Source: a virus. Taken from it: a stretch of DNA of 25,966 nt. The position numbers and the translations under genes were made by a program. The notes beneath the pieces were generated by a model. It was given only the letters and a program-made list of their open reading frames with translations, ran no database searches and was not told the DNA's origin. Each line of letters opens with the position of its first letter. Position 1 is the first letter of the stretch. Location: IMG/VR virus record IMGVR_UViG_3300001282_000615, positions 3,745 through 29,710 of that record; one strand, 5' to 3'. Positions 844 through 25,492 of the stretch are shown piece by piece.

Positions 844-851
844 GATAAATA
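844..851 (+). promoter_or_regulatory. T4-type late promoter (GATAAATA)
   Basis: GATAAATA closely matches the T4 late promoter element TATAAATA, read by the gp55-type sigma factor without a -35 box. It lies 19 nt upstream of the ATG of the neck-type protein gene. A Shine-Dalgarno (AGGAAA) falls between the two, so the predicted mRNA has a short conventional leader. Confidence 0.72.
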
Positions 852-1814: not shown

Positions 1815-1843
1815 TTGACAACACTCACTTCTTATGTTATAGT
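1815..1843 (+). promoter_or_regulatory. Sigma70-type promoter of the dNMP kinase gene
   Basis: A perfect TTGACA (-35, 1815-1820), a 17-nt spacer and TATAGT (-10, 1838-1843) preceded by TG at the extended -10 position. With the usual 6-nt gap the start site falls at 1850, exactly the A of the kinase ATG, so the transcript would be leaderless. There is no Shine-Dalgarno between promoter and gene. Host RNA polymerase could use this promoter early in infection. Confidence 0.85.
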
Positions 1844-1849
1844 GTAATA

Positions 1850-2485
1850 ATGATAATAGGAATAACAGGTCTGATAGGATCAGGCAAAGACACAGCAGCA
1901 GATTATCTCTGCACATTTCACGGCTTCAAGCGTATGAGCTTTGCTGGCGCATTGAAAGATGCCGTAGCAGTTATCTTCAATTGGGACCGTGAACTTCTTG
2001 AGGGTTCAACCAAAGCCAGCCGTGAATGGCGAGAAGAAATTGACACTTGGTGGGCAGAACGATTGGGTATCCCTAATCTGACTCCCCGTTGGGTATTGCA
2101 GCAATGGGGAACAGACGTTGCCCGCAAGAACTTTCATAACGATATCTGGGTGGCAAGCGTAGAGAATCGCTTACGGGGAATCAAGGATGATATCGTAATC
2201 ACTGATTGTCGCTTTGCTAATGAAGTACACGCTATCAAGAGTGCAGGTGGCGTTACTTTGCGAACGCATCGTGGGGCAGATCCTATCTGGCTTGAAATAG
2301 CAGAATTGCACACTACAGCGGATAACGACAAAGATAAGACATACTTTAAAGACTTGCTAGAACAGAATCATGATGTTCATGCTAGCGAATATAGCAGTAT
2401 TGGACTAGATTACGATTATCACATTGACAACACCGGAACGATTGACCATCTACACAAACAGATGGAATCAGTAATCAACCGTTAA
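1850..2485 (+). CDS. Deoxynucleoside monophosphate kinase (T4 gp1-like)
   Basis: 211-aa P-loop kinase of the T4 gene 1 dNMP kinase family. It transfers a phosphate from ATP to deoxynucleoside monophosphates to feed the phage dNTP pool. The Walker A motif GLIGSGKDT is at residues 7-15. A LID/substrate region carries TPRWVLQQWGTDVAR at about residues 78-92, and the strand DDIVITDCRFANE (about 112-124) carries the DxRF motif typical of this family. Length is close to T4 gp1 (241 aa), slightly shorter. It has its own sigma70-like promoter with the predicted start site on the ATG and no Shine-Dalgarno, so it is probably expressed early even though it sits among late virion genes. Its last 18 nt overlap the convergent minus-strand gene. 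Confidence 0.9.
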   Translation: MIIGITGLIGSGKDTAADYLCTFHGFKRMSFAGALKDAVAVIFNWDRELLEGSTKASREWREEIDTWWAERLGIPNLTPRWVLQQWGTDVARKNFHNDIWVASVENRLRGIKDDIVITDCRFANEVHAIKSAGGVTLRTHRGADPIWLEIAELHTTADNDKDKTYFKDLLEQNHDVHASEYSSIGLDYDYHIDNTGTIDHLHKQMESVINR

Positions 2486-2961: not shown

Positions 2962-5900
2962 ATGGCACTAGTATCCCCGGGCGTAGAAGTAACGATTACA
3001 GACGAATCGCAATATCTTCCAGCACCCACTAACTCAATTCCTTTTATTCTTCTTGCAACAGCAGAGAATAAAGCAAATCCAAATGGTACCGGAGTAGCTG
3101 TTGGTACTACCGCAGCTAATGCTGGAAAACTATTTCAGGTAACAAGCCAACGTGATCTTGTGACTCTTTATGGAGAGCCGTTCTTCTATACTACTTCGAA
3201 TGGGACTCCTATTCAGGGTTATGAATTGAACGAGTACGGATTGCTAGCAGCGTATTCAGCACTTGGCATTACTAATCGTGCATTTTGCTTAAGAGCAGAC
3301 ATCGACTTAGCAAGTCTCGTAGGACAAACAGGTAGACCAAGTGGTGCACCTGAAGATGGAACTTACTGGTTAGACACTTCTATCACAACTTGGGGTATTA
3401 ATGAGTTTGATTCAGTTACCGGTCAGTTTACACTACAGCAACCGATCGTAATCACTGATTCATCACTATTAGACGGCGGATTTCCGCTACAGTCAACCGG
3501 TGTTTTCGGCGACTACGCAGTAAACGCTATTCCAACTTATGAAGTACCTACTGCGGCTGATGCAGTTCAATTCTTCTATAAAAATGTTGACAATGTTTGG
3601 GTATCAATTGGTTCTCCGGAATGGTTAGAATCATGGCCAACTATTCAAGGGGCTAATTCAGTAAGTACATTGACTGCAGGTGATACTCTTACTATTAACA
3701 TCAACGGTAGTTTCGGCGCAACACTTACTGTTCCAGCCGCACCTGATAATACTGTGAGTTATATGGCCTCACTAATCAATTTACTAAACTTCCAGTTCTT
3801 GTCGGCTAGAGCAGCAGGAACAGGAACAAGCCAAAGTTTGCAATTGTTTTCTACTCAAAATGCTGGTCAATTGGGTGTAACTACACCATTTTCATTGACT
3901 GTTGCAGGAACAGGAACACTTCTTGCTGACTTGGGTATTTCTGCTGGTACATACTATCAGCCAGGTTTCGATTATGGAACTTCTGCTGAACAGCCACTTT
4001 GGACTACTGGTCAAACATTCCCTAGACCAAGTGGTTCAGTTTGGCTCAAAGTCGGAACAGCTGGATCTGGCCTAAACACTGCAATTTCTGTTTGGAATAG
4101 TACTTTAAATACTTGGGTACCTAAAACAGTATCCTACGCTACTTCTGACGTTGCTGCTACTAATGCACTTGATTCAACTGGTGGTAAGAATATTCCAGCC
4201 GGAACAGTATATACTCAGTATGATTTTAATGTAGCTACATTTGCTTCTCAGGCTTCTCCTCCTCTATATTATTGGGAAAGACTTGCAACCGGTCCAACGA
4301 TAGTTACGGGCAGCGTTACTAATCCAACATTTACTGTTGGGCCCTATTCTCTTGAGGTGATAGTGTCTTTGCCGGGAACAGGAATTAGTGGCACTTACTC
4401 AATAACATTAGGTGATGACACTGATGCTACAGATTTTGTAAATGAGTGGAATAGTACTGCTATCCCTTATACAACTGCTACTGTAACCGATGCAGGAGCA
4501 ATTCAGATTACACATACCCAAGGTGGTGAAATCTACATGAATGATAGAAGCAACACCACAGGCTTGCCCACTACTCCATCATTACTAAGCGCCGCAGGAT
4601 TCATTCCTGGATCAACATTAGGAGTGAAAAACGGATTTGGTGACCCTTTTGTCTTCCAGCCAGTGCAATCATCAAGTAGTGGATTAGGTGCAAACCTATC
4701 TATTAATGTTGGAACAGCTTATGGAAAATATTACGTTAACCCTACAAGCTTTCCTAATGCAGGATCAGGTTTTGCAGTCGGTGATACCGTAACTTTCTTA
4801 GGAAGTGCTATGGGCGGCACAGCGCCTACTAATAATCTTGTTGTTGAAGTAACAGCAGTTGTTTCTGGTGCAGTCACAGCTATTACACCAGTTAGTGGCG
4901 TAGCAGTAGCAAACTATACTACTCAGTTATCAAACTGGGTTGAATTTGATATGACTGCAAACGAAGGTGCACCGGTAGCTGCTCCTGCTAACCTAACTAA
5001 TTGGTTCTACTCAGTTGTTGACGAAGTAGATATCATGGTTAACACATCAGCTGGATGGAGAGGATATAAGAATGTCAATTATGACGCTAGTGGTTTCCCA
5101 CTCCCAAGCGGTACAAACTTAACGGATCCAAACGGACCAATCGTAAGTGCAAGTGAACCAACTGTACAATCAGACGGAACTGCTTTGGCATACGGCGACA
5201 TTTGGATCGATACATCTGACTTAGACAATTATCCAATCATTAATCGTTGGCAGCAAGTTGATACCGTTGATCAGTGGGTAAGAATTGATAATACTAACCA
5301 GACAAGTTCAACCGGCGTAGTATTCGCTGACGCTCGTTGGGCCCTTAACGGTACAACTAACCCAGTTGACGATCCTATCCCATCGATTGTGAGCTTGCTA
5401 TCTAGCAATTATTTGGATTTGGATGCGCCAACTACGTCACTTTATCCAGTAGGTATGCTATTGTTCAACACTCGTCGTTCAGGGTACAATGTTAAGCAAT
5501 ACCGCACTAACTACTTTAACACAACTCAATTCCCGGATGAGACACTTCCAGTTGAGAAGGCCGCATGGGTTTCAGTAAGTGGTCTAGAGTCAAGCGGTGC
5601 TCCTTATATGGGTCGTAATGCCCAGAGAGCAATGGTTGTTCAAGCAATGAGAGCAGCAATTGATTCTAACGGTGCAATTCGTGATGATGACAATCCATTC
5701 AACTTGATTGCAACTCCGAATTATCCTGAATTGCAACCTAACATGATTATTCTTAACAATGATCGTGGTCAAACTGGATTTATTATCGGTGACACACCAA
5801 TGAGACTGCCAGATGACGCAACTGCAATTCAAGCGTGGGCAACAAATGCTGCTGGCGTATCATCAACCGGAGAAGAAGGTCTAGTAACCCGTGATACTTA

Positions 5901-6573
5901 TATGGGTCTATTCTATCCATCAGGGATTACTAATGACTTGCGTGGTAATTTAGTAGCAGTTCCCCCATCACACATGATGATTAGAACTATTCTTCGCAAC
6001 GATAGTATCGCTTATCCTTGGTTCGCCCCAGCAGGTACTCGTCGTGGGGTAATTGATAACGCAGCGTCAATCGGTTACATTGATTCAATTACAGGTGAGT
6101 TTGTTCCAATCAAGACAAGAATAGGAATTCGTGACGTATTATATACTAATCAAATCAACCCACTCGTGTTCTTCACTGGAAATGGTTTGTTGAACTACGG
6201 TAATAAATCAAGCTTTAATTCACAGTCAGCACTTGACAGAATTAACGTTGCAAGACTTATTGCTTATCTTCGTCGTCAATTGACAGTCGCAGCAAGACCG
6301 TTCATCTTTGAACCAAATGATGCGCTGACAAGACAAGAGATTTCAGGGGTTGTCCAAACACTTCTAGTTGATCTTGTTGCTAAGAGAGGCATCTACGATT
6401 ATCTTGTAGTTTGCGACGAATCAAATAACACTCCTGCCCGTATCGATAGAAACGAGCTTTGGGTAGATGTTGCAATTGAGCCAGTTAAGGCAATTGAGTT
6501 CATCTACATTCCGGTTCGTGTCTTCAATACTGGAGAAATTGCAGGATTAGCAAATGGGCTATCACAAGACTAA
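2962..6573 (+). CDS. Contractile tail sheath protein (gp18-like), greatly enlarged
   Basis: 1203-aa tail sheath subunit, the protein that contracts around the tube to drive DNA delivery. The N-terminal arm MALVSPGVEVTITDES and the C-terminal domain from about residue 877 (SGAPYMGRNAQRAM through IEPVKAIEFIYIPVRVF) are classic gp18. T4 gp18 has 659 residues, so about 540 extra residues lie in the middle, the part that faces outward in T4. The insertion carries three related segments of the form PSG/DG-x-W-L/I-DTS near residues 124, 352 and 729, which look like repeated surface modules. A late promoter, a leader hairpin and a strong Shine-Dalgarno precede it and a perfect hairpin follows it. The family assignment is secure; the role of the insertion is unknown. 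Confidence 0.93.
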   Translation: MALVSPGVEVTITDESQYLPAPTNSIPFILLATAENKANPNGTGVAVGTTAANAGKLFQVTSQRDLVTLYGEPFFYTTSNGTPIQGYELNEYGLLAAYSALGITNRAFCLRADIDLASLVGQTGRPSGAPEDGTYWLDTSITTWGINEFDSVTGQFTLQQPIVITDSSLLDGGFPLQSTGVFGDYAVNAIPTYEVPTAADAVQFFYKNVDNVWVSIGSPEWLESWPTIQGANSVSTLTAGDTLTININGSFGATLTVPAAPDNTVSYMASLINLLNFQFLSARAAGTGTSQSLQLFSTQNAGQLGVTTPFSLTVAGTGTLLADLGISAGTYYQPGFDYGTSAEQPLWTTGQTFPRPSGSVWLKVGTAGSGLNTAISVWNSTLNTWVPKTVSYATSDVAATNALDSTGGKNIPAGTVYTQYDFNVATFASQASPPLYYWERLATGPTIVTGSVTNPTFTVGPYSLEVIVSLPGTGISGTYSITLGDDTDATDFVNEWNSTAIPYTTATVTDAGAIQITHTQGGEIYMNDRSNTTGLPTTPSLLSAAGFIPGSTLGVKNGFGDPFVFQPVQSSSSGLGANLSINVGTAYGKYYVNPTSFPNAGSGFAVGDTVTFLGSAMGGTAPTNNLVVEVTAVVSGAVTAITPVSGVAVANYTTQLSNWVEFDMTANEGAPVAAPANLTNWFYSVVDEVDIMVNTSAGWRGYKNVNYDASGFPLPSGTNLTDPNGPIVSASEPTVQSDGTALAYGDIWIDTSDLDNYPIINRWQQVDTVDQWVRIDNTNQTSSTGVVFADARWALNGTTNPVDDPIPSIVSLLSSNYLDLDAPTTSLYPVGMLLFNTRRSGYNVKQYRTNYFNTTQFPDETLPVEKAAWVSVSGLESSGAPYMGRNAQRAMVVQAMRAAIDSNGAIRDDDNPFNLIATPNYPELQPNMIILNNDRGQTGFIIGDTPMRLPDDATAIQAWATNAAGVSSTGEEGLVTRDTYMGLFYPSGITNDLRGNLVAVPPSHMMIRTILRNDSIAYPWFAPAGTRRGVIDNAASIGYIDSITGEFVPIKTRIGIRDVLYTNQINPLVFFTGNGLLNYGNKSSFNSQSALDRINVARLIAYLRRQLTVAARPFIFEPNDALTRQEISGVVQTLLVDLVAKRGIYDYLVVCDESNNTPARIDRNELWVDVAIEPVKAIEFIYIPVRVFNTGEIAGLANGLSQD

Positions 6574-6622: not shown

Positions 6623-6630
6623 GATAAATA
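6623..6630 (+). promoter_or_regulatory. T4-type late promoter of the tail tube gene (GATAAATA)
   Basis: GATAAATA followed by C, 21 nt upstream of the tube ATG, with a strong AGGAGA Shine-Dalgarno at 6639-6644. Its position right after the hairpin lets the tube gene be transcribed independently of the sheath gene. Confidence 0.78.
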
Positions 6631-8584: not shown

Positions 8585-8592
8585 TATAAATA
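8585..8592 (+). promoter_or_regulatory. T4-type late promoter, exact consensus (TATAAATA)
   Basis: A perfect TATAAATA followed by exactly five bases (GTATT) and the ATG at 8598. With T4 late spacing the transcript would start at the ATG. No Shine-Dalgarno is visible in this interval. Confidence 0.8.
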
Positions 8593-8597
8593 GTATT

Positions 8598-8954
8598 ATG
8601 GCTATATTTACTATTACTTCCACCGACAGCGCAGTAAGAATTTTTGATAATTTTTACTCCACAAGACTCAGAGTGAATGCTACAGACTGGGATGTAGTGT
8701 ACTCATTTTTCTTGGGTAACTCAAACGACAAAACTGAAGCCAGTACGTTTGCATCACTTTTGTTTAGAATTGCGCAAGAAGGAAACTACAATGTTCTTGA
8801 TTTATTAGCAACTATTAAAGGTAAAACTAATAAATTGCAGATGAATCAAGTCATATGCTACTATCTCAACACATTTAGACCAAAAGCATCCTTATATGGT
8901 GTTGGTATCATTCCAAGGCCTAATGAACCAGTTCAGAGAAACGTAGTCATGTGA
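8598..8954 (+). CDS. Conserved small T4-like phage protein (118 aa), probably virion-associated
   Basis: I recall this protein from aquatic T4-like phages, where it sits by the tail and head-completion genes and carries no function. Recognisable segments are VRIFDNFYSTRLRVNATDWD (about residues 13-32), LLFRIAQEGNYNVLDLLATI (about 54-73) and a C-terminal YYLNTFRPKASLYGVGIIPR (about 87-106). It is a compact alpha/beta protein without signal or membrane segments. It has an exact late promoter five bases from its ATG and no Shine-Dalgarno. Late expression and position between tail genes and gp4 suggest a structural or assembly role, which is inference. Confidence 0.68.
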   Translation: MAIFTITSTDSAVRIFDNFYSTRLRVNATDWDVVYSFFLGNSNDKTEASTFASLLFRIAQEGNYNVLDLLATIKGKTNKLQMNQVICYYLNTFRPKASLYGVGIIPRPNEPVQRNVVM

Positions 8955-9391: not shown

Positions 9392-9399
9392 ACTAAATA
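9392..9399 (+). promoter_or_regulatory. T4-type late promoter (ACTAAATA)
   Basis: The TAAATA core (9394-9399) is followed by five bases (CTCAT) and the ATG at 9405, the same spacing as at 8585. It lies just after the gp4-like stop codon. No Shine-Dalgarno is seen between it and the start. Confidence 0.6.
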
Positions 9400-9404
9400 C
9401 TCAT

Positions 9405-9884
9405 ATGACAAAAAAACTAGAACAACTTTTTGAACTTTCTTCGTCTGTCGAAAATGACCTAACTATTCCACTTCCGGATATGACGGAAGAAGTAACTGAA
9501 AACGCACTTAGCACATTAGATAAAATTGAAGCTGCGTTGCCCCAAGTAAAAGGGTTAGAAGCTGCTGATACTGAGATGGACGAGCTTGCACAGATGGCTA
9601 CCTCAAGTTACAAAGACTTGATGGACTTGGGTATGCAAGTAGAATCACGCTTTAGCTCAGAAATCTTCAATAGTGCAAGTAGTATGCTAGGACATGCTAT
9701 TACTGCTAAGACTGCGAAGATTAATAAGAAGCTCAAAATGCTTGATTTGCAAATGAAAAAAGCACAATTAGATGCTAAAAATGCAGCTAAAACCGAAGAA
9801 ATAGAATCTACCCCATTGGGAACGGGTCAATCGCTTGATCGCAATGACCTACTTAAAATGTTTAACACTAAAAACAAAGAGTAA
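9405..9884 (+). CDS. Terminase small subunit (gp16-like)
   Basis: 159-aa protein matching the small terminase subunit of marine T4-like phages. It binds DNA or regulates the large terminase gp17 to start headful packaging. Visible features are an acidic N-terminal third, YKDLMDLGMQVESRFSSEIF (about residues 70-89), ASSMLGHAITAKTAKINKKL (about 92-111) and a long basic helix KMLDLQMKKAQLDAKNAA (about 113-130), consistent with the central coiled-coil helices of gp16. The last segment LDRNDLLKMF (about 143-152) is a conserved short helix. It is very similar in length to T4 gp16 (164 aa). The large subunit is not in this window. It has a late promoter five bases upstream and no Shine-Dalgarno. Confidence 0.72.
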   Translation: MTKKLEQLFELSSSVENDLTIPLPDMTEEVTENALSTLDKIEAALPQVKGLEAADTEMDELAQMATSSYKDLMDLGMQVESRFSSEIFNSASSMLGHAITAKTAKINKKLKMLDLQMKKAQLDAKNAAKTEEIESTPLGTGQSLDRNDLLKMFNTKNKE

Positions 9885-9885
9885 T

Positions 9886-9893
9886 GATAAATA
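9886..9893 (+). promoter_or_regulatory. T4-type late promoter (GATAAATA)
   Basis: GATAAATA overlaps the end of the gp16-like gene region by one base past its stop. The ATG at 9921 lies 27 nt further on, after an AAGGA Shine-Dalgarno, so this promoter gives a conventional leader. Confidence 0.74.
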
Positions 9894-13201: not shown

Positions 13202-13209
13202 GATAAATA
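13202..13209 (+). promoter_or_regulatory. T4-type late promoter of the large fibre gene (GATAAATA)
   Basis: GATAAATA followed by C, 29 nt upstream of the fibre ATG, with a TAGGAT Shine-Dalgarno-like element at 13225-13230. It lies directly after a strong terminator, so the fibre gene depends on it. Confidence 0.76.
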
Positions 13210-18520: not shown

Positions 18521-19144
18521 ATGAGTAGAGTAACATTAGAATTATTGAGAGAAGTATGCCCGAAGACCAAGGCAACTGTTCTTGCAAAATATGTAGAACC
18601 GCTAAACAAGATCGGTGACCACTTTGACTTATTCGAGAATCCAAAGAGAATGGCTGCATTCCTAGCACAGATTGCTCACGAGTCCGGCGGATTCAACTTT
18701 GTTAAGGAAGGGTTGAACTATAGTGCTGCGTCACTTAGAAAAACTTGGCCAAAACGTTTCACTACACTAGAAATCGCAAACCAATATGCTCGTAAGCCAG
18801 TAAAGATTGCAAACAAAGTCTATGCAAATCGCATGGGCAATGGAACAGAAGCATCAGGTGACGGCTACAAATTCTGCGGTCGTGGACTAATTCAGTTGAC
18901 CGGTAAAGATAACTATAGTCGCTTTGCTAAGTCACTAGGCATGTCATTGGATGAAGCTGTTGCATATCTTGAAACTGCTGAAGGTGCTGTAGCAAGTGCT
19001 GGTTGGTTCTGGGACGCAAACAAGCTAAGCATCTATGCAGACAAAGGTGACTTTGTTGGCTTAACTAAGCGTATCAATGGTGGTACTATTGGTCTAGCTG
19101 ATAGAAAGCATCACTATGATATTGCATTGAAGGCATTAAAGTAA
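18521..19144 (+). CDS. Endolysin, glycoside hydrolase family 19
   Basis: 207-aa GH19 (chitinase-like) lysozyme that cuts peptidoglycan glycan strands for host lysis. The catalytic pair is visible: Glu54 in IAHESGGF and Glu63 in KEGLNYSAASL. The downstream GRGLIQLTGKDNY (about residues 118-130) and the GWFWDANKL / KRINGG segments are the usual substrate-cleft motifs. There is no signal peptide, so export would need a holin, and none is evident next to it. A strong GGGGG-containing Shine-Dalgarno lies about 10 nt before the ATG. It lies within the fibre region, so a virion-borne role is also possible, though no tail-attachment domain is seen. Confidence 0.9.
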   Translation: MSRVTLELLREVCPKTKATVLAKYVEPLNKIGDHFDLFENPKRMAAFLAQIAHESGGFNFVKEGLNYSAASLRKTWPKRFTTLEIANQYARKPVKIANKVYANRMGNGTEASGDGYKFCGRGLIQLTGKDNYSRFAKSLGMSLDEAVAYLETAEGAVASAGWFWDANKLSIYADKGDFVGLTKRINGGTIGLADRKHHYDIALKALK

Positions 19145-19151
19145 TATAATT

Positions 19152-21671
19152 ATGGCACAACCCATTTGGAACACCCCGGCTGGTAATATAGGAGCATTTA
19201 CTTCTGGATCTATTGTCAATTTTCAATTGTCCGCTACTCCTGTATCACCGGCCATCTCAGTCACATATGAACTGATTAGTGGTGTACTACCTACAGGTAC
19301 TTCACTAACTACCTCCGGGGTGATATTTGGTAGAACAGAACCGGTTTTGGATAACACACCATATACATTTGTAGTAAGAGCAACAGATAATCTTGGAAAT
19401 ATTCGAGACAGGACGTTTAACATAAGTTTGTCCGGGATCGACGCTCCTGAATTTGTAACCCCTTCCGGGACACTATTTGTGACTAATGATAGCATATGGA
19501 TAGAATATCCTATCAGATATAATGTGCCAATTGCAGATACACCAACGTTGATTGCATTAGTTCAGGGTACTCTTCCACCTGGTTTGGAAATAAACGAATT
19601 TGGATTAATAAGAGGATATCCCAATCCTCCTGTCGTGAACGTATCCTTGGGTTCTGTCACTACTGCATCACTTGCTGTATTAGATAACACAATCACCTGC
19701 TATAGTACTTTGGGATTTAGTGTCGGACGACCTGTATCATTCTCCGGTACTGTACTAGGTGGCCTTACGGCAGGAGAAACGTACTATGTCAGAGAAGTAA
19801 TTAACTCTACTACGTTTACAATATCTACTACCGTTAACGGTCCAACATATCAACTATCAAATGACGCCGGGTATATGGATGTACTGTTACCTAATATTTC
19901 TGTCGGTCAACCCACTATTGAAACTTATGAATTTACATTAAGATTGATTACTGATTTTGGAACTGCTCTACAAACATATTCGATTACAGTAGTAAATCAA
20001 AATGCACCGCTATCTATCGGTGGTCCAAGTCGGCCCCTCAATACTAGAATACCTACAATACTGAATACTAGACCGCTAACATATAATATTTTAGTGAATG
20101 ATATTGATTATGCTTTCTATTTGTTCCCACCTAATTCCGAAGGTAGAACATACCTTCCCACTCAATTTGCTTATATCGGAAAAAGTAGTAGTAATGACAG
20201 ATTTTCTTTTCAAATATTAGGAAAAGATTTTGATAACAGTGAACTTGAATATGTTTTTGCTGATCTACCATTAGGGTTGTTTGGCGATAGTCAAACGGGT
20301 TGGATAACAGGCAATCCTGTGATTGCGGATAACTCAATCAGTGAATTTACCTTTTCAGTAGCGGTTCGTAAAATACAAAATCCATCAATAACATCACCGT
20401 TCGTGAATTTCTCATTCCAAATTAGGAATGCGTTGAACGGGAACATTATTTGGGTCAGTCCTGAAAATTTAGGAACAGTATTTAATGGAACTACTAGCAC
20501 TCTTAGGGTGTCGGCGGCTAGTGATATATCTCTACAATATCGCATTGTATCAGGTTCTCTTCCGGCTAATCTTGTGCTACTCGATTCTGGAGAATTAGCT
20601 GGCAATATTGCTTTTCAACCTAGCGATACTTTCACCGACGCCAATCAGACTAGGGATTTTACGTTCACCATTGAAGCATATTCTCCGAATTTTGCCATAG
20701 TCAGTTCACAACGAACATTTACACTGTCAGTGGAGCAACTGTTCCCATATCCAACGGATACTCTTTATATTAAATGTTCTTCAAGTATTCCAGACAGAGA
20801 ACTACTAAAGACACTACTTGATAATGATAGCTTGATTCCTAATGAAATGATATATAGACCAAATGATATCAATTTTGGTAAAGCAACAAGTATCATATAT
20901 GAACATGCATACGGAATAAATTCTAGTTCATTAGATGAATACATAGCCGCGGTGACTATAAATCACTATTGGAGACAAATTACATTAGGTGAAATAAAGA
21001 CTGCAATTGCTAGAGACGAACAAACTGGCGAAATTATATATGAAGTCGTATATAGCAGTGTTATTGATAATTTAGTAAATCCAGCTGGGCAAAGTGTCAG
21101 TAAAGAAATATTTTGGCCAAGATTTATACCCTTAAATGAGGGCCCTTGGTACACAAGTTCCACTGACATATTCACGAGCTATATCGGACAGGGCGGACAA
21201 ACACAGTTCTATACTAGTTTAACACCAGGATTTGCTAGATTGCTATATCCTAATAGTTTACCTAATATGAGACAACAAGTAATCGACGTAATAGGAAGTG
21301 AAGAAAATACCTATATCTTGCCATTATGGATGACAAGTCAACAACTAGACGGTAATACCTTAGGCTACACCCCCGCTTGGGTAATATGCTATACTAAACC
21401 GGGCTTTGCAGAAATCATTAAGAGCAACATAGAAAACAATTGGAAAAATCCAGTAGGACAGATACAGCGTCTTAATCAAATCGCTTTCAATATCGATAGA
21501 TTTACGGTTGACAAAAGCACTACGTACAACTACGATAATAACTTGGTGCCTCCAGCTTGGACTGCATTGCCGAGTGGTGATCCGGTTCCCGATCCTATTG
21601 ATAGCCAAGATTTTTATGTCTTATTTCCCAGACAGACAATTTTACCTAACGATACCCAGTATCCACGATAA
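19152..21671 (+). CDS. Virion structural protein with Ig-like (He_PIG-type) domains
   Basis: 839-aa protein. Its first two thirds hold repeats resembling putative Ig domains: TYELISGVLPTGTSL...GVIFG (about residues 38-60), LVQGTLPPGLEINEFGLIRG (about 135-154), a diverged copy near 364 (VFADLPLGLFGDSQTGWITG) and RIVSGSLPANLVLLDSGELA (about 463-482). Between copies two and three lies a module, FSGT..GGLTAGETYYV (about residues 197-215), shared with the neighbouring fibre-type protein. The C-terminal third is not Ig-like and has a conserved look (DTLYIKCSSSIPDRELLKTL onward). Ig-like domains are common on phage tails and are thought to aid adhesion to cell surfaces. It follows the endolysin gene by 7 nt, and the next late promoter overlaps its stop codon. 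Confidence 0.78.
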   Translation: MAQPIWNTPAGNIGAFTSGSIVNFQLSATPVSPAISVTYELISGVLPTGTSLTTSGVIFGRTEPVLDNTPYTFVVRATDNLGNIRDRTFNISLSGIDAPEFVTPSGTLFVTNDSIWIEYPIRYNVPIADTPTLIALVQGTLPPGLEINEFGLIRGYPNPPVVNVSLGSVTTASLAVLDNTITCYSTLGFSVGRPVSFSGTVLGGLTAGETYYVREVINSTTFTISTTVNGPTYQLSNDAGYMDVLLPNISVGQPTIETYEFTLRLITDFGTALQTYSITVVNQNAPLSIGGPSRPLNTRIPTILNTRPLTYNILVNDIDYAFYLFPPNSEGRTYLPTQFAYIGKSSSNDRFSFQILGKDFDNSELEYVFADLPLGLFGDSQTGWITGNPVIADNSISEFTFSVAVRKIQNPSITSPFVNFSFQIRNALNGNIIWVSPENLGTVFNGTTSTLRVSAASDISLQYRIVSGSLPANLVLLDSGELAGNIAFQPSDTFTDANQTRDFTFTIEAYSPNFAIVSSQRTFTLSVEQLFPYPTDTLYIKCSSSIPDRELLKTLLDNDSLIPNEMIYRPNDINFGKATSIIYEHAYGINSSSLDEYIAAVTINHYWRQITLGEIKTAIARDEQTGEIIYEVVYSSVIDNLVNPAGQSVSKEIFWPRFIPLNEGPWYTSSTDIFTSYIGQGGQTQFYTSLTPGFARLLYPNSLPNMRQQVIDVIGSEENTYILPLWMTSQQLDGNTLGYTPAWVICYTKPGFAEIIKSNIENNWKNPVGQIQRLNQIAFNIDRFTVDKSTTYNYDNNLVPPAWTALPSGDPVPDPIDSQDFYVLFPRQTILPNDTQYPR

Positions 21672-21674
21672 ATA
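21667..21674 (+). promoter_or_regulatory. T4-type late promoter (GATAAATA)
   Basis: GATAAATA overlaps the TAA stop of the Ig-domain gene. The ATG of the next gene is 18 nt beyond it, after GGAAC at 21681-21685, which can serve as Shine-Dalgarno. A tiny ORF (MEQKL) begins four bases after the promoter and ends on that start codon. Confidence 0.72.
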
Positions 21675-23824: not shown

Positions 23825-24334
23825 ATGTTCAAAGATAAGTATGGTCAGTTAATATTCAATGAGAATGATTTGGTAGATTTGTATCTAACCAACACTGAAT
23901 TCTCTACCAAAAGAGAAATATTAGTAGAAAACGATATTTTGTTTGATGACTCATTAGATTTAAAAACGCCTACTAAAGTAAAAAAATATCAAAAACTAGA
24001 TATTTCTATCGAAGATTTCGATATTCAATCAAGTAACACATGGCACTTCCCGTCTGAATACCAAACATTTGACATAGCTAAATTCGTATTAGACCAATGT
24101 CAATCTGAAACTGAACTGCAACGAGCAGGAGAAGAACTATTAATGTTTCAGGAACGAGATATGTTAATACTACTTAAGTATTTGAAATATCTAGTTGACA
24201 CCATGAGAAATAATAACATTGTTTGGGGTGTGGGAAGAGGATCATGCGTAAGTAGTTTTGTCTTGTTTCTTATTGGAATTCACAAAATCAATCCGATATA
24301 CTATGATCTTGATGTCAGTGAATTTTTAAAATAG
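23825..24334 (+). CDS. DNA polymerase III alpha (DnaE)-like fragment protein
   Basis: 169-aa protein whose C-terminus matches a palm-domain motif of bacterial replicative polymerase III alpha. VGRGSCVSSFVLFLIGI (residues 136-152) corresponds to GPGRGSxxGSLVxYxLxIT of DnaE, and NPIYYDLDVSEFLK (156-169) to DPLxxxLLFERFLN. The chain ends exactly there, just before the place where DnaE has its catalytic PDxDxD aspartates, so it cannot be a polymerase by itself. The N-terminal 130 residues are charged, and I cannot align them with confidence. It may be a repurposed fold that binds nucleotide, DNA or a replisome partner. I recall similar short proteins in aquatic T4-like phages. It has its own sigma70-like promoter and probably a leaderless mRNA. 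Confidence 0.72.
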   Translation: MFKDKYGQLIFNENDLVDLYLTNTEFSTKREILVENDILFDDSLDLKTPTKVKKYQKLDISIEDFDIQSSNTWHFPSEYQTFDIAKFVLDQCQSETELQRAGEELLMFQERDMLILLKYLKYLVDTMRNNNIVWGVGRGSCVSSFVLFLIGIHKINPIYYDLDVSEFLK

Positions 24335-24347
24335 ATGATTAGATACA

Positions 24348-24355
24348 CATAAATA
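24348..24355 (+). promoter_or_regulatory. T4-type late promoter (CATAAATA)
   Basis: CATAAATA, 17 nt upstream of the ATG at 24373, with a strong GAGGAG Shine-Dalgarno between them (24361-24366). It gives a conventional short leader. Confidence 0.74.
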
Positions 24356-25274: not shown

Positions 25275-25303
25275 TTGACATTTGTATTATATAATAGTAA
25301 TAT
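25275..25303 (+). promoter_or_regulatory. Sigma70-type promoter of the one-TM protein and clamp-loader genes
   Basis: TTGACA (25275-25280), a 17-nt spacer and TAATAT (25298-25303). The predicted start site is 25310, the A of the next ATG. A perfect TATAAT at 25290-25295 is too close to this -35 (9 nt) but could act with another element. No Shine-Dalgarno lies before the ATG. Confidence 0.66.
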
Positions 25304-25309
25304 GAGAAT

Positions 25310-25492
25310 ATGACAAACAAAACCATCAAAACCTATGCACCCTACATTGCTGTATTTGCTGCTTTGGGAGCGGCCGCTGCTGCTGCCACGGTAGCATATA
25401 TAAAAACTTCAAAGGCCCTTAAAGAATTGGAAGATATTGATCTTGACTTTGGTAACGATCCTGTGCTATCTTCTCATTTTAAGAAGGATTAA
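25310..25492 (+). CDS. Small single-pass membrane protein (60 aa)
   Basis: One clear hydrophobic helix, APYIAVFAALGAAAAAATVA (residues 10-29), follows a short basic N-terminus and is followed by Lys residues and an acidic C-terminal tail (ELEDIDLDFGNDP). The N-terminal charge and the Ala-rich helix could also be read as an uncleaved signal anchor. I do not recognise a family. It lies directly before the clamp-loader gene (3 nt apart), and the two probably share the sigma70-like promoter at 25275, so it is likely made early. A holin is possible from size alone, but early expression and a single Ala-rich helix make that weak. Confidence 0.68.
   Translation: MTNKTIKTYAPYIAVFAALGAAAAAATVAYIKTSKALKELEDIDLDFGNDPVLSSHFKKD

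Follow-up and report, generated by a model that had tools for sequence, protein, structure and literature searches.

Leaderless start sites predicted behind early- and late-type promoters in uncultivated T4-like jumbo phages

Results and Discussion

The window analyzed here, a stretch of 25,966 nucleotides that forms part of a 29,710-base IMG/VR virus record, carries sigma70-type promoters whose -10 boxes lie a fixed 6 nt before an ATG, so close that the predicted transcripts would begin on the start codon itself. The sites at 1815 and 23790, and possibly the one at 25275, are probably real promoters that give leaderless transcripts, an arrangement that appears to be regular in a group of uncultivated T4-like jumbo phages and to involve both of their promoter types. 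An earlier note on this DNA, made from the sequence alone, had drawn attention to the three sites. Its observation is confirmed and is part of something larger than a reader of the sequence could see. Its interpretation is partly supported: it needs to be widened to include late promoters and leadered neighbors, and trimmed, with the third example doubtful and the timing of expression offered as a prediction.

Distances are given below as d, the number of bases that separate the promoter box from the ATG; in this measure a leader of 1 to 3 nt is indistinguishable from none. A sigma70 promoter usually sets +1 at this distance from its -10 box when d=6, and in a T4 late promoter transcription begins with the sixth base downstream of the box. 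We propose that both polymerase forms would begin transcription at the A of the ATG, the sigma70 form doing so behind the promoters at 1815, 23790 and possibly 25275 in the window, and that the ribosome would recognize the 5'-terminal AUG in place of Shine-Dalgarno (SD) pairing. Some early-type genes (those for the dNMP kinase, a DnaE-like fragment, the phrog_11279 protein, an exonuclease, a primase and others) would be read from a sigma70-type promoter at d=6, and some late genes (for virion proteins and the terminase large subunit) from a T4-type late box at d=5. Other genes of the same genomes would keep leaders, often with an SD sequence.

Promoters and genes in the window

All three promoters are as the earlier note described them, in hexamers, 17-nt spacers, coordinates and the 35 nt from the first T of the -35 box to the ATG, and in each the gap between -10 box and ATG is 6 nt (Table 1). 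Of the 24 start codons listed for the window, 3 have, at exactly d=6, a promoter that matches 9 or more of 12 positions, compared to a mean of 0.061 in dinucleotide shuffles of the 24 upstream regions. None of 3000 shuffles yielded three such sites, and chance was rejected as their source on this count. The argument that one recurring exact distance speaks against chance was therefore sound, and the recurrence, far above chance in the window, also holds across whole genomes and within gene families. Promoter-like sites as such are no more numerous in the window than expected by chance (34 versus 30.5 and 30 versus 40.5 in shuffled sequence); the signal thus lies in position before the ATG.

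Table 1. Genes and promoter elements of the window, in window coordinates
Feature	Position	Strand	Evidence or remark
dNMP kinase gene, predicted leaderless	1850..2485	+	phrog_139, E 6.7e-47; PF21448
DnaE-like (DNA polymerase III alpha) fragment gene, 169 aa, predicted leaderless	23825..24334	+	phrog_11127, E 9.8e-42; PF07733
Gene for 60-aa protein, familyless	25310..25492	+	PHROG/Pfam searches; 4 relatives found
Sigma70-type promoter TTGACA-17-TATAGT-6-ATG1850	1815..1843	+	11/12 matches
Sigma70-type promoter TTGAAA-17-TAAGAT-6-ATG23825	23790..23818	+	9/12 matches
Sigma70-type promoter-like site TTGACA-17-TAATAT-6-ATG25310	25275..25303	+	10/12 matches; doubtful
Late box TATAAATA, 5 nt before ATG 8598	8585..8592	+	Predicted leaderless late gene 8598-8954
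Variant late box ACTAAATA, 5 nt before ATG 9405	9392..9399	+	Predicted leaderless late gene 9405-9884
Late box GATAAATA, 19 nt before ATG 871	844..851	+	SD; leadered
Late box GATAAATA, 21 nt before ATG 6652	6623..6630	+	SD; leadered
Late box GATAAATA, 27 nt before ATG 9921	9886..9893	+	SD; leadered
Late box GATAAATA, 29 nt before ATG 13239	13202..13209	+	SD; leadered
Late box GATAAATA, 18 nt before ATG 21693	21667..21674	+	No SD by 4-mer rule
Late box CATAAATA, 17 nt before ATG 24373	24348..24355	+	SD; leadered

No SD 4-mer precedes any of the starts at 1850, 23825 and 25310, as had been noted. The accompanying claim that many other genes of the window have one is true of 11 of the 21 remaining starts. 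Ten lack it, including those of the late-type leaderless genes 8598 and 9405; the start at 18521 has a G-rich run that the 4-mer rule misses. An in-frame stop codon immediately precedes the ATG of the dNMP kinase gene.

The three sites are unequal. Those at 1815 and 23790 are kept in diverged relatives, whereas the promoter at 25275 is retained only in an identical copy (L108), the -10 stretch being absent from the three diverged relatives found (L109-L111). We regard the 25275 site as doubtful because of this lack of conservation. The 60-aa protein behind the doubtful site matched no PHROG or Pfam family. The 169-aa DnaE-like protein is encoded by a separate, stand-alone gene, and its match to the polymerase family is confined to positions 19-94 of PF07733.

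Early-type promoters across genomes

Eight environmental records (G000, G001, G002, G003, G004, G006, G007 and G016), in which 11,595 ATGs begin reading frames of 60 or more codons, were searched for early promoters with at least 10 of 12 matches. There are 33 such promoters at d=6, compared to 6 at d=5 and 5 at d=7. Permuted hexamer pairs (n=192) gave a mean of 2.16 and a maximum of 10 at d=6, and no more than 13 at any distance; permuted motifs thus rule out AT-rich composition as the cause of this peak and of the late peak described below. GTG and TTG starts show no early peak at d=6 (5 sites versus 33 for ATG). The d=6 sites are distributed as 8 in G001, 7 in G016, 6 in G004, 3 each in G002, G003 and G006, 2 in G000 and 1 in G007. 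The peak is carried by G001, G016 and G004; it is weak in G002, G003 and G007, where another distance is equal or higher, and in G016 another distance reaches 6.

Leadered early promoters in the same eight records are spread broadly over 15-45 nt, with up to 13 sites per distance. The earlier note had named early promoters at varied distances as a case against its idea; early-type promoters of this sort proved to be present in the same genomes, so that leaderless and leadered promoters coexist.

TTGACA-N17-TANNNT-N6-ATG was found 40 times, versus once for the backward pattern, in records G001-G004 and G015-G018, and 5 times versus once in four isolates. A looser early pattern gave 54 matches versus 4 for the control in 14 records (G005 and G013 repeat others) and 37 versus 11 in seven isolates. 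No clear early peak at d=6 was found in PA5oct, 121Q, Atu_ph07 or SCTP-2; early promoters in PA5oct and 121Q form a broad hump at about 20-36 nt.

Genes with the promoter at d of 5-7 in more than one record are those for the dNMP kinase, the DnaE-like fragment, the phrog_11279 protein, the exonuclease, the primase (phrog_47) and a familyless protein of 333 aa. SbcD-like, RusA-like and endonuclease proteins occur once each, and some of the sites listed at these distances look like chance matches within genes. The d=6 genes of recognized family are mostly of early type, with roles in nucleotide metabolism, replication and recombination.

Conservation within gene families

Upstream regions were counted as independent when less than 80% identical to each other. 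They were drawn from the best loci of longer match lists, except for the DnaE-like fragment, for which 27 loci plus the window were used. In four gene families the promoter stands at exactly d=6 in 58 of 90 independent regions.

The dNMP kinase gene is the most informative with respect to leaders. From the best 80 of 282 loci, 78 plus the window were usable and provided 22 independent regions. The promoter is at d=6 in 14 of these, none with an SD sequence, and 19-26 nt upstream in 8, of which 7 have one. In four loci (L058, L059, L060 and L062) the gene begins 9 nt earlier, and the promoter has shifted along with the start codon. A quickly built tree of 42 distinct proteins, 30 of them leaderless and 12 leadered, needs at least 4 changes of leader state, of which starred branches force 3; shuffled labels require 10.6.

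The DnaE-like fragment has its promoter at d=6 in 9 of 14 independent regions, at d=9 in 3 and at d=12 in 1, with none in the remaining one; inspection by eye showed no promoter of this kind next to the ATG in the more distant relatives L101-L106. For the phrog_11279 protein (best 80 of more than 600 matches, 77 usable), 20 of 22 independent regions have d=6 and the other two d=5. Its start codons are credible because orthologs in isolates begin at the same place without this promoter.

The exonuclease (phrog_298; best 80 of 597, 68 usable) is more variable, although its starts were picked automatically and some may be wrong: of 32 independent regions, 15 have the promoter at d=6, 2 at d=7, 4 at d=5 and 7 elsewhere, and 4 have none. 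An SD 4-mer is present in 1 of the 17 regions at d of 6-7. Exonuclease loci L341, L357, L364 and others like them contain a perfect 10-bp dyad, TTGTACTACA ... TGTAGTACAA, across the -35/-10 region, possibly an operator. Loci L316, L331 and L349 contain repeated CTATAAT units.

Late promoters

The earlier note had described leaderless genes as an early class. That restriction was rejected, as T4-type late promoters show a matching leaderless peak. In six records ATAAATA occurs 38 times at d=5, 11 times at d=4 and 3 times at d=6, with a second mode at 17-30 nt. Since ATAAATA is its own reverse, permuted 7-mers served as the control; 20 of them gave a mean of 0.9 and a maximum of 4 at d=5, and at most 14 at any distance. 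Eight records contain 59 late boxes at d=5 before ATG and 1 before GTG or TTG. ATG is thus nearly the sole start codon at both early d=6 and late d=5, and the near-absence of GTG and TTG fits leaderless initiation. ATAAATA-N5-ATG was found 141 times, versus 28 for the backward pattern, in 16 environmental records, and 41 versus 22 times in 12 isolates; PA5oct has 8 versus 4 for the control, and T4 has 2 versus 0.

In the window, gene 8598 has ATAAATA-5-ATG in 19 of 19 relatives, which represent about 6 distinct upstream contexts, and gene 9405 has TAAATA-5-ATG in the contigs of 18 of 19 relatives, the spacing being 6 nt in L398. A PHROGs scan assigned no function to these two proteins. G001 has 13 and G016 has 18 late leaderless genes that are 60 codons or longer; 2 of the 13 and 0 of the 18 have an SD 4-mer. 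Four of their proteins were scanned with PHROGs, and three are virion structural proteins and one the terminase large subunit; late boxes of the TATAAATA type thus stand before structural genes. The Pelagibacter T4-like phage HTVC008M, which encodes bS21, has 9 ATAAATA-5-ATG sites versus 1 for the control, and leaderless late genes may extend beyond the jumbo group.

Alternative explanations

Genome compaction could squeeze promoters into minimal gaps near the ATG, with leaderless translation a useless by-product; transcripts would then start wherever possible, or the genes would be read mostly from promoters further upstream. Coding density is indeed 0.96-0.98 in six environmental records (simple gene calls), and the -35 box commonly overlaps the 3' end of the preceding gene. 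Compaction alone, however, would make gaps short but variable in length instead of giving one sharp peak at 6 nt and another, for the second promoter type, at 5 nt; nor does it account for ATG as nearly the sole start at those distances. PA5oct and 121Q are about as compact (0.94 and 0.96), yet have no early peak. We consider this explanation unlikely.

Slightly less likely still is that the 5'-terminal AUG is a mere loading point for ribosomes, with translation also supplied by read-through or translational coupling. The window genes are arranged in co-directed arrays with short gaps, as such a mechanism would favor, and E. coli mRNAs with a 5'-terminal AUG have been described (PMC4965119). 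Against it stand the dNMP kinase relatives with a distant promoter, 7 of 8 of which have regained an SD sequence, as expected if the start region works alone. A chance origin of the window sites in AT-rich DNA is very improbable for 1815 and 23790, which are conserved, given that no shuffle reached three sites and that permuted motifs give no genome-wide peak, even if the total of promoter-like sites is near the shuffled mean and the doubtful 25275 site is unconserved.

Transcription from fixed positions into leaderless messages therefore remains our preferred reading. If it holds, the position of the promoter would identify start codons across a widespread group of giant phages, and orthologs with and without leaders would be natural pairs for studying why a virus drops the SD sequence. 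The hosts would be predicted to translate leaderless mRNA well.

Comparison with known systems

The classic leaderless phage mRNA is that of lambda cI, which begins on its AUG and represents one gene of a temperate phage. The transcripts predicted here would likewise begin with AUG, but they would form a recurrent class in lytic-type jumbo phages, with two promoter types. Lambda cI is also named as a leaderless phage mRNA in a review (PMC9031893).

In T4, leaders are the rule. The T4 late box lies roughly a helical turn ahead of the start (PMC2988020), as the late boxes here would, and structural genes lie behind it, but ATAAATA-5-ATG occurs only the two times given above.

In bacteria, Zheng et al. 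2011 (PMC3160421) take a TANNNT located some 12 bp upstream of the start codon as the sign of leaderless ("TA-led") genes. A d of 6 puts TANNNT at this very distance, and its first T is 12 bp before the ATG in 3 of 3 window genes. As in the TA-led genes of that account, the -10 box here would make the start codon the site of +1, predicted leaderless genes share a genome with SD-led ones, and orthologs switch mode. The TA-led genes belong to cellular genomes, whereas those described here belong to jumbo phages, mostly have a -35 box as well, and are joined by a late box at a distance of its own.

Early and late promoters of the jumbo phage AR9 have been mapped by RNA sequencing; that report (PMC5312081) gives 5' UTRs of 26-491 nt and describes RNA polymerases of the phage's own, in both of which AR9 differs from the jumbo group here. 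With reference to one E. coli study, the same source notes that transcripts of phages frequently lack a leader. For PA5oct, our literature search gave no mapped 5' ends. The PA5oct exonuclease gene has TTGACA-17-TATAAT-7-ATG, the nearest cultured case, and in 121Q, RaK2 and GAP32 this gene has a TATAAT box and then a short, GGAG-containing leader. Open-licence PMC full text yielded no account of leaderless genes as a class in T4-like jumbo phages, which does not prove that none exists. Leaderless genes are already known, but the literature searched contained no report of their systematic use with two promoter classes in these phages.

Translation factors

Leaderless mRNAs are bound mainly by 70S ribosomes, inhibited by raised IF3 and favored by initiator tRNA, according to a review (PMC9031893). 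An IF3 (PF00707) is encoded by 5 of 7 related jumbo isolates, Phosso, Atu_ph07, 121Q, GAP32 and RaK2; none was found in PA5oct, SCTP-2, five other T4-like phages or any of 16 environmental records (G001-G018 set). The two carriers measured, 121Q and Atu_ph07, lack both the early and the late peak. PA5oct and SCTP-2 encode no IF3, yet they too show no clear early peak; their late d=5 counts are 2 and 7 versus means of 0.9 and 2.4. Phage IF3 thus runs opposite to the leaderless peaks, a lead rather than a result, as descent and cause are confounded.

It is possible, though on balance doubtful, that two initiation modes run in parallel across the early and late programs, that selection on position keeps replication and virion genes leaderless, and that control through IF3 perhaps decides between the modes. 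Pairs of leadered and leaderless orthologs, if the preferred reading is true, could be used to ask whether phage IF3, initiator-like tRNA or bS21 steers ribosomes between modes.

The environmental genomes G001 and G016 have 43 and 28 tRNA genes, respectively. Each has a tRNA-Met gene with a C-A mismatch at 1:72, which is initiator-like (L132:16979-17057 in G001 and L469:3404-3480 in G016). Such initiator-like tRNAs, found in G001, G016, PA5oct and Atu_ph07 among 12 records scanned, do not track the leaderless class; nor does bS21, present in 8 of 28 records, five of them isolates.

Phage identity, relatives and host

The tail sheath protein and dNMP kinase place the window near the jumbo phages PA5oct/Paride, 121Q, RaK2, GAP32, Phosso, Atu_ph07 and SCTP-2, with the nearest cultured relatives at no more than about 47% identity among the matches listed for these two proteins. 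The window comes from a T4-like jumbo phage related to PA5oct, RaK2 and 121Q. Its relatives among viral contigs include records of up to 367 kb. The tail sheath protein (2962-6573) is very long, at 1203 aa, and its PHROG matches fall mostly in residues 648-1191, so that its first half represents a sizeable extension or insertion.

A search of cellular genome contigs with the dNMP kinase found no relative that would point to a host. The same search with the phrog_11279 protein gave one match of 29 residues, at 52% identity, in a Hyphomicrobiaceae MAG, too weak to assign a host. tmRNA genes that ARAGORN marks with an asterisk, which we take to denote the permuted form, are present in G001 (L123:19513-19897), G003 and G004, and their tags, such as ANDNSTMDIALAA, are a possible hint at the host.
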